Assembly: GCF_002354895.1 (NCBI RefSeq) | Contig: NZ_CP023439.1 | Location: 2,604,001-2,668,000 of the forward strand | Length of the DNA: 64,000 nt | DNA from: Thauera sp. K11 | GTDB lineage: Bacteria > Pseudomonadota > Gammaproteobacteria > Burkholderiales > Rhodocyclaceae | Direction: 5' to 3' | Shown here: positions 34,084 through 34,363 of the stretch, piece by piece | How the letters are laid out: every line of letters starts with the position of its first letter | Position numbering within the stretch: the stretch's first letter is position 1 | Made by a program: the position numbers and the translations under genes | The notes under the pieces: model-generated | Seen by the model: only the letters and a program-made list of their open reading frames with translations | What the model was told of the DNA's origin: nothing | Databases searched by the model: none

Positions 34084-34152
34084 AGTCACCTCTCATAAAG
34101 AGGGGTGACTTTTCCCACTTACTCACATTGAACAACCTAAGTTTCAATCCAC
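34084..34152 (-). ncRNA. Candidate crRNA-like regulatory RNA (degenerate repeat, spacer, hairpin) inside the cas operon
   Basis: Read on the minus strand: bases 34152-34141 are GTGGATTGAAAC, identical to the last 12 bases of the CRISPR repeat, i.e. the whole mature type I-C handle. Upstream bases keep only 9 of 20 repeat positions. The next 31 bases (34140-34110) are spacer-sized. Their first 16, TTAGGTTGTTCAATGT, recur on the plus strand at 34335-34350, just upstream of a small ORF, with TTT (34332-34334) in the PAM position. At 34109 a hairpin starts GTCACCCCTC and closes with GAGAGGTGAC, where the next repeat (which starts GTCGCGCC) would begin. Known CreA/CreR RNAs use a degenerate repeat and a short seed match to make Cascade repress a promoter without cleavage. 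Expression is not shown. Confidence 0.55.
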
Positions 34153-34289
34153 ATCCGCACCAGTCTCTCGATCAGTCCGATCAAAGCAATGCCGATGACC
34201 AACCACGGCAGTAATGGCTGTCGGTGTCCTCGAAAGCTCAGCTCAAACTTGATATGCAGGTCCGGGCCAGACTCTTTTGGCTGTTTCAC
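34137..34289 (-). CDS. Predicted 50-residue single-pass membrane protein between cas3 and cas5c
   Basis: An ORF too short for routine calling. GTG at 34289 is preceded by AGGGG seven bases upstream, and the stop TAG is at 34139-34137. The first 25 residues are polar (MKQPKESGPDLHIKFELSFR). They are followed by a hydrophobic helix PLLPWLVIGIALIGLIERLV and a short tail ending MWIET. The codons for the tail (TGG ATT GAA ACT) are the CRISPR handle. The ORF lies in cas orientation, downstream of a candidate promoter that the crRNA-like RNA would target. A small membrane toxin (CreT-like) is one reading; a fortuitous ORF is the other. Confidence 0.5.
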   Translation of the reverse strand: MKQPKESGPDLHIKFELSFRGHRQPLLPWLVIGIALIGLIERLVRMWIET

Positions 34290-34318
34290 GACATAACCCC
34301 TGTCATGATCGTGAACCC

Positions 34319-34347
34319 AACTTAGCCTAGCTTTTTAGGTTGTTCAA
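34319..34347 (-). promoter_or_regulatory. Candidate sigma-70 promoter overlapping the 16-bp target
   Basis: On the minus strand TTGAAC (34347-34342) and TAAGTT (34324-34319) are 17 bases apart, matching the -35 and -10 hexamers at four and three of six positions. The -35 lies inside the 16-bp sequence that the crRNA-like spacer matches, so Cascade bound there would block it. The match is weak and the promoter is a proposal only. Confidence 0.35.
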
Positions 34348-34363
34348 TGTCGAAATTTTCCTG

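Follow-up and report, generated by a model that had tools for sequence, protein, structure and literature searches.

A putative Cascade-guided mini-CRISPR with variable cargo in the cas3-cas5c gap of type I-C CRISPR-Cas loci

Modules that pair a crRNA-like guide with a partially matching local target have been described next to several CRISPR-Cas systems. In the type I-F CreTA module of Acinetobacter, an RNA toxin lies in the cas3-csy1 gap and needs a Shine-Dalgarno sequence, a hairpin and a start codon (PMC10097628). The type I-E module of Citrobacter rodentium has a 96-bp toxin ORF in the cas3-casA gap, which is repressed by Cascade and is toxic only if translated (PMC12055562), and CreTA is also found in type I-B of halophilic archaea. 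CreR is a mini-CRISPR RNA with limited complementarity to a cas promoter and a predicted role in autorepression (PMC13131331, PMC12737573). A review lists it for types I-B, I-E and V-A (PMC13131331), and another speaks of type I and V-A (PMC12737573). In CrePA a protein cargo, typically with a KilA-N domain (CreP), is repressed by a CreA-guided effector (PMC12737573). The term I-C is absent from two CreTA papers searched in full (PMC8501985, PMC9458426). No type I-C CreA, CreR or CreTA module was present among the matches listed in literature searches, judged by titles and the first parts of abstracts; the earlier note on this DNA likewise knew of none in this position of a type I-C locus. Shmakov et al. 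reportedly surveyed repeat-like elements of many subtypes in 2023, and an example from type I-C could thus be listed in that survey; Liu et al. in 2023 are said to have surveyed CreR. On sequence grounds, the locus described here extends the CreA/CreR-type guide to type I-C, a subtype not found reported in the literature searched.

The window, i.e., the whole 64-kb stretch of Thauera sp. K11 DNA that was analysed, has a minus-strand type I-C system in the order cas3, gap, cas5c, cas8c, cas7, cas4, cas1 and cas2, followed by the array. The array has 67 copies of the repeat end at 24072-28488, and its spacers are 33-37 nt long (n = 62, those between exact repeats). The cas3-cas5c gap is at 34065-34363. 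It holds, in operon order, the target and a candidate promoter, an AGGGG Shine-Dalgarno sequence, a GTG-started ORF, psi-repeat 1, the psi-spacer, a hairpin and the cas5c ATG (Table 1).

Table 1. Features of the cas3-cas5c gap and of its neighbours in the window
Feature	Position	Strand	Basis or remark
cas3 (type I-C), upstream neighbour of the gap	34364..36688	-	PADLOC Cas3c, E 1.2e-228
PAM TTT	34332..34334	+	sequence; TTC in 24/27 module loci
Target (protospacer) = first 16 psi-spacer bases	34335..34350	+	exact 16-mer; overlaps a -35-like hexamer
Candidate promoter TTGAAC-17-TAAGTT	34319..34347	-	weak by score; aligned relatives similar
Small ORF, 50 aa, GTG start after AGGGG, one hydrophobic segment	34137..34289	-	dN/dS, hydropathy
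psi-repeat 1	34141..34172	-	handle equals array repeat end; upstream half degenerate, codes for small ORF
11-nt handle TGGATTGAAAC	34151-34141	-	identical to array repeat end
psi-spacer, 31 nt, begins TTAGGTTGTTCAATGT	34110..34140	-	abuts handle; shorter than measured array spacers (33-37 nt)
psi-repeat 2, GTC-starting hairpin GTCACCCCTCTTTATGAGAGGTGAC	34085..34109	-	region 34112-34084 folds at -14.7 kcal/mol, z -5.5
cas5c, predicted processing nuclease, first gene of downstream operon	33390..34064	-	TIGR01876 E 6e-54, PADLOC Cas5c
cas8c, cas7, cas4, cas1, cas2	28698..33288	-	PADLOC type I-C family matches; cas8c start approximate

The repeat end GTGGATTGAAAC is found 68 times in the window, and the copy at 34152-34141 (minus strand) is the only one outside the array. 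The earlier note had described this repeat end with a 31-base spacer abutting it, and both its coordinates and its letters are correct, as is the exact match of the handle to the array repeat. The GTC-starting hairpin that it placed at the expected position of a second repeat is borne out by the fold of that region, and only 20 nt lie between this hairpin and cas5c. The upstream half of psi-repeat 1 forms almost no hairpin: it folds at -4.2 kcal/mol with a z of -0.6, and the array repeat at -12.9 kcal/mol. The window has repeat-like sequences on both sides of a spacer-like stretch, outside the array and within the cas locus, with the first of them devoid of a stem. When up to 3 mismatches are allowed, the handle together with the first 11 spacer bases has one site in the whole genome of 5.29 Mb.

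The recurrence of the first 16 spacer bases beside TTT, as described earlier, is exact. The earlier note held the abutment of a handle and a self-matching seed to be unlikely by chance. At up to 3 mismatches the 64 kb contain no third site for the 16-mer, and no site arose in 100 shuffles. Of the 59,025 positions of the window that lie outside the array, only 8 have a 16-mer recurring within 400 nt, both copies included. When the 62 array spacers were compared with the gap, the best reached 7/10 seed positions, whereas the psi-spacer reaches 10/10. A promoter had also been proposed beside the target. The sequence TTGAAC-17-TAAGTT is indeed there, and the aligned places in two relatives are similar (L112 TTGAAC-17-TAGGCT, L034 CTGAAC-17-TATGCT); the pair is nevertheless weak, with a shuffle P of 0.10 (60 shuffles, scored with a sigma-70 matrix), and a strict promoter scan of the window region found none. 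Strong -35/-10 pairs are found at four other loci (L056, L075, L062, L069).

For comparison, the best 80 of 359 confirmed cas5c relatives in the genome collection were taken together with the window (81 loci). A first pass used the strict motif GGNTTGAAA[CT] and no PAM requirement, and gave 19 loci. Their best unconstrained sites are flanked by TTC in 14, by TTT in 2 and by neither in 3 (L095, L097 and L104, whose PAM-flanked sites are imperfect, with 9, 8 and 9 of 10). The motif was then relaxed to GGNT[TAC]GAAA[CT] after inspection of L078, L086 and L092, so that these three loci are not blind, and was sought at -200 to -40 of cas5c. It is found on the sense strand in 23/81 loci, at -77 to -151, and within this interval the antisense strand has it in 0/81; the 700 nt farther upstream contain 2 occurrences. 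A family search returned 12 close loci, 7 of them repeats of loci already named. Four of the 5 new ones (L112, L117, L120, L123) have the module and were added, giving 27 module loci with 23 distinct seeds; the fifth, L113, has no module.

Each seed was scored by its matches at spacer positions 1-5 and 7-11 to the best TTC- or TTT-preceded site in about 520 nt upstream. Own seeds of the 23 handle loci score 10/10 in 11 loci, 9/10 in 10 and 8/10 in 2 (L097, L101), while spacers swapped among these loci reach at least 8 in 24/504 comparisons and at least 9 in 5/504. With the 23 distinct seeds of the enlarged set, own scores of at least 9/10 are found in 21/23, and swapped ones in 5/506. Imperfect module loci are L095, L097, L101 and L104, the first of them from Azotobacter vinelandii; in L060 the match loses its register past base 10, within an A-run. 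With a PAM required, the flank is TTC in all but the window, L034 and L094, which have TTT. The nearest relative, L112, from the same genus, has C in both copies at base 1 where the window has T in both, and its own seed and target mismatch at bases 6 and 7. Drift of one copy of the 16-mer in relatives had been named as the pattern that would speak against a guide; the opposite is found, and seed and target co-vary over 15 sequence groups (our grouping). Thus the relatives keep the guide-target design, as read from sequence, despite differing seeds.

A type I effector does not read every sixth base of its guide, as these bases are flipped out. To look at each position of the match, the target site was chosen without the tested position, and 1-2 loci per position with more than one other seed mismatch were dropped. 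Positions 1-5 match in 25/26, 24/26, 24/25, 25/26 and 25/25 loci and positions 7-11 in 23/25, 25/25, 19/25, 25/25 and 23/26, in contrast to 8/25 at position 6 and 6/25 at position 12. Each of positions 13-17, which entered the choice of site as a tie-break only, matches in 15-21 of 25. With one representative for each of the 15 groups, position 12 is matched in 1/15 versus 51/75 at positions 13-17 (Fisher p about 1e-5), and with alternative representatives the latter figure is 47/75 (p 8e-5). The window itself matches at both positions. In type I-B CreA, bases 6 and 12 can be changed without loss (PMC8501985), and TTC is named beside targets in a type I-C system (PMC8406640). The tolerance pattern is as expected if a type I effector is the selecting agent, and points to continuing selection through Cascade.

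Handle-bearing loci outside the first sample show the same design. A class-wide search of 369 genomes gave 21 further loci, two of them (L152, L167) cut by contig ends, with the start estimated. The handle is found in 4/21 (L150, L151, L154, L155), with scores of 10, 10, 9 and 10, all with TTC. Six of 30 listed plasmid loci were examined, and the handle is found in one, L143, from pTM3 of the alphaproteobacterium Tistrella mobilis; it has TTC and a score of 9, which 0/300 shuffled spacers reached, the match having been noticed by eye before scoring. Overall, the handle is present in 5/27 further loci, all five of which score 9 or 10 with TTC, and is lacking in 22/27. None of the 27 duplicates an earlier locus.

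What lies between target and guide varies. A putative membrane protein with a strongly hydrophobic segment, as judged by hydropathy, is encoded in 18/27 module loci (the window, L034, L043, L047, L059, L060, L078, L080, L086, L089, L092, L094, L095, L097, L101, L104, L112 and L117). Its stop codon is within -10 to +12 of the expected Cas5c cut in 17/18, lying past the cut in 9 of these and short of it in 8; the exception is L089 at -86. Hydrophobic ORFs are also present in the further loci L150 and L151, with stops at -41 and -26. In 6/27 loci (L033, L042, L056, L075, L120, L123) a structured RNA replaces the membrane ORF. It is composed of a G+C-rich hairpin, GGAGGG, a hairpin that encloses the start codon (ATATGG...CCATAT, or GTATGG...CCATAC in L075) and a tiny ORF, e.g., MARTHM... 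Double changes in at least one sequence are seen in 17/56 predicted pairs, a raw count with no null model. A search of six loci against Rfam gave nothing above the gathering score. In plan, the sequence of this RNA resembles the type I-F CreT RNA toxin; that plan, in which a start codon enclosed by a hairpin comes after a Shine-Dalgarno sequence, is absent from the window. A cargo was not recognised in 3/27 loci (L062, L070 and L069, the last with a 29-aa ORF devoid of a hydrophobic segment), nor in the further loci L143, L154 and L155. As these six have no membrane ORF, guide and cas5c are their evident output.

The ORF of the window has a single match in the genome, and its stop codon TAG is formed by psi-spacer bases 2-4. 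Pairwise dN and dS are 0.065 and 0.82 for window-L112, 0.19 and 0.89 for window-L034, 0.22 and 0.89 for L112-L034, 0.087 and 0.24 for L043-L047, 0.049 and 0.24 for L043-L117, 0.26 and 0.57 for L059-L060, and 0.29 and 2.6 for L080-L095; the values for L047-L117 (0.061 and 0.073) come from few changes and are uninformative. In these calculations the first and last six codons were dropped, the reading of L043, L047 and L117 began one codon late, and synonymous sites are partly saturated. The ratio is well below 1 in 7/8 pairs. The ORF is under purifying selection where testable, by this measure, and by hydropathy it encodes a conserved, putative single-pass membrane protein. The earlier note described neither this nature of the ORF nor the different cargo, or lack of it, in other loci. 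Searches of Pfam, PADLOC and NCBIfam gave no family above cut-off, the sub-threshold matches in Pfam and NCBIfam being DUF3094, SecG and SA1362, and Pfam showed no KilA-N domain, the one typical of CreP, in the window ORF. A profile search of 5.8 billion proteins found 12 relatives, and both named entries are hypothetical proteins.

The psi-repeat 2 region beats its shuffles by z of -2 or lower in 25/27 module loci, and a near-canonical repeat is seen by eye at this place in L097, L150 and L151. Psi-repeat 1 folds poorly in the window, L034, L112, L086, L097, L104 and other membrane-ORF loci, where it is mostly coding. In the loci with an RNA cargo or none it folds better than shuffles in 8/9, the exception being L123. 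Where psi-repeat 1 is poorly folded, processing may be of low efficiency, or Cas5c may depend on further cues.

The cas3-cas5c distance could be measured in 77/80 sample loci and is below 130 nt in 46, 130-1000 nt in 30 and 4422 nt in L084. Module loci of the sample are all among the 30, except L060, which has no cas3 upstream; of these 31 loci 22 have the module, 7 have an ORF of the form IYMITYPNGKIYVGKD...NYFGS and 2 (L072, L093) have neither. A conserved ORF that looks GIY-YIG-like by eye, about 110 aa long, occupies the gap of L038, L046, L050, L055, L058, L065, L074 and L147; the one tested had an NCBIfam E of 0.27, below cut-off. In L147, on a plasmid of Rhizobium sp. Q54, this ORF is possibly disrupted, and since cas8c is annotated there in two pieces the type I-C locus may be inactive. 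Among distant I-C loci, no handle with a seed score of at least 8 was found in L005-L031, and the handle is absent from the 17 loci L124-L140. A module upstream of cas3 was sought in all 76 loci that offer 250 nt or more on that side, and none was found; 22/23 motif matches belong to regular arrays in L070 and L082, and one, in L036, is unrelated. At L006:1404 a handle, spacer and hairpin stand directly before cas5c with the target not found, possibly a relic. Near L007:2331 a handle-like motif in opposite orientation lies upstream of cas5c, near a strong hairpin, with no module recognised.

The type I-C module is like CreTA in having a crRNA-like guide in a cas gap, a partial PAM-flanked match near a candidate promoter, and a short ORF or RNA as cargo. 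It differs in that Cas5c is the predicted processor and the cargo is a putative single-pass membrane protein, for which toxicity is proposed by analogy. The guide also has the same orientation as the cargo, and overlaps or closely follows the cargo stop in 17/18 protein-cargo loci, whereas the type I-F guide is divergent from its toxin (PMC10097628) and the type I-E guide is on the opposite strand (PMC12055562). A putative mini-CRISPR RNA with limited complementarity to a candidate cas promoter is shared with CreR, as is the predicted autorepression by Cascade; the difference from CreR is that target and guide are separated by a protein or RNA cargo in 24/27 loci. A guide-repressed protein cargo would be shared with CrePA; in type I-C, however, this cargo would be a membrane peptide some 50 aa long, for which Pfam, PADLOC and NCBIfam gave no match above cut-off.

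Taken with the type I-C PAM, covariation, tolerance at positions 6 and 12 and the five of five further handle loci argue for the CreA/CreR-type reading of the earlier note. The gap very probably holds a type I-C mini-CRISPR of this type, which would exert Cascade-guided negative feedback on the gap promoter, and such autorepression is well supported by the comparison. In the model that we infer, psi-repeat 1, psi-spacer and psi-repeat 2 would share a transcript with the small ORF and the genes of the cas5c operon, and from this transcript Cas5c would produce a crRNA-like guide. Guide-loaded Cascade would then bind the PAM-flanked target over the promoter-like region just after cas3. With pairing limited to 16 bases, Cascade should be able to bind and to obstruct RNA polymerase, and Cas3 should cleave inefficiently. 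The match is contiguous over 16 bases in the window and L155 and shorter and interrupted elsewhere; neither kind gives a full R-loop, and such incomplete pairing lets Cascade bind with little activity of Cas3. Since one promoter region heads cargo, guide and cas5c, bound Cascade would repress all three. Working Cascade would thereby hold down the expression of the small membrane protein and of the guide, and probably that of cas5c-cas8c-cas7-cas4-cas1-cas2. If Cascade were lost, starved or inhibited by an anti-CRISPR, the small protein, the guide and probably the cas genes would rise. Several points stand against this model: transcripts reading through from cas3 might keep up expression of the downstream cas genes, psi-repeat 1 of the window has no stem of the kind that Cas5c is expected to recognise, the PAM in the window is TTT and not TTC, its promoter scores weakly, and the best unconstrained sites of L095, L097 and L104 have neither TTC nor TTT beside them.

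The membrane protein would be, with a chance slightly above even, a toxin or abortive effector repressed by Cascade, by analogy with CreTA and CrePA. It is a more speculative and rather unlikely proposal that these membrane proteins are a new toxin family of type I-C loci, repressed by Cascade and under two-level control in one transcript. Because the first repeat overlaps or abuts the toxin stop codon, the Cas5c cut that releases the guide would also cut the 3′ end of the toxin message; in loci such as the window this cut would remove the stop codon, and the released guide would bring Cascade to the promoter.

Autoregulation of the cas genes alone, as in CreR, would have the guide tune cas5c-cas2 to crRNA supply and to anti-CRISPRs, with the ORF a harmless leader or accessory membrane protein. 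The six loci that have guide and target with neither a membrane ORF nor an RNA cargo fit this explanation, as do the nearness of the psi-repeat 2 hairpin to cas5c in the window and the occurrence of CreR in types I-B, I-E and V-A (PMC13131331). We consider it a serious possibility with a probability clearly under one half, as the ORF is under purifying selection and is present in 18/27 loci despite great sequence divergence, and is replaced in 6/27 by an RNA with CreT-like features. An ORF that is either kept or swapped for an RNA looks like exchangeable cargo under one guard.

The remaining explanations concern the origin of the match itself. A leftover mini-array with a self-matching spacer, in decay, might account for the degenerate psi-repeat 1 of the window and for L006, where a handle precedes cas5c with no target detected; but the seed-target match is held in 23/23 handle loci and 5/5 further ones with different seeds, with tolerance specific to positions 6 and 12, and such a relic is highly improbable. 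Chance would make of the WIET encoded at the handle a mere protein C-terminus and of the inverted 16-mer a stem or the binding site of a protein regulator. In the window, L034 and L112 the last residues of the ORF product are indeed encoded by the handle, and the window 16-mers are inverted copies. Elsewhere, however, the stop codon comes ahead of the handle or within it, nine loci (L033, L042, L056, L062, L069, L075, L078, L120, L123) have direct and not inverted copies as spacer and target, and TTC or TTT flanks 16/19 sites chosen with no PAM requirement. As covariation and the scores of the further loci also contradict it, we give coincidence next to no weight. A Racr, i.e., a phage-derived solitary repeat acting as RNA anti-CRISPR and captured in the cas operon, needs neither a fixed position in that operon nor a spacer that matches a local PAM-flanked site. 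Both are found here, the former in many genera, and a captured Racr is scarcely credible even though a type I-C Racr exists (PMC10651486). Coincidence, relic, protein operator and Racr were rejected on these grounds.

Under the preferred reading, that of a Cascade-guided type I-C mini-CRISPR, the naturally varied guide-target pairs of these loci would reveal, without experiment, the seed positions that Cascade reads. The unnamed family of small membrane proteins and the alternative RNA cargo are candidate guards against the loss or inhibition of CRISPR.
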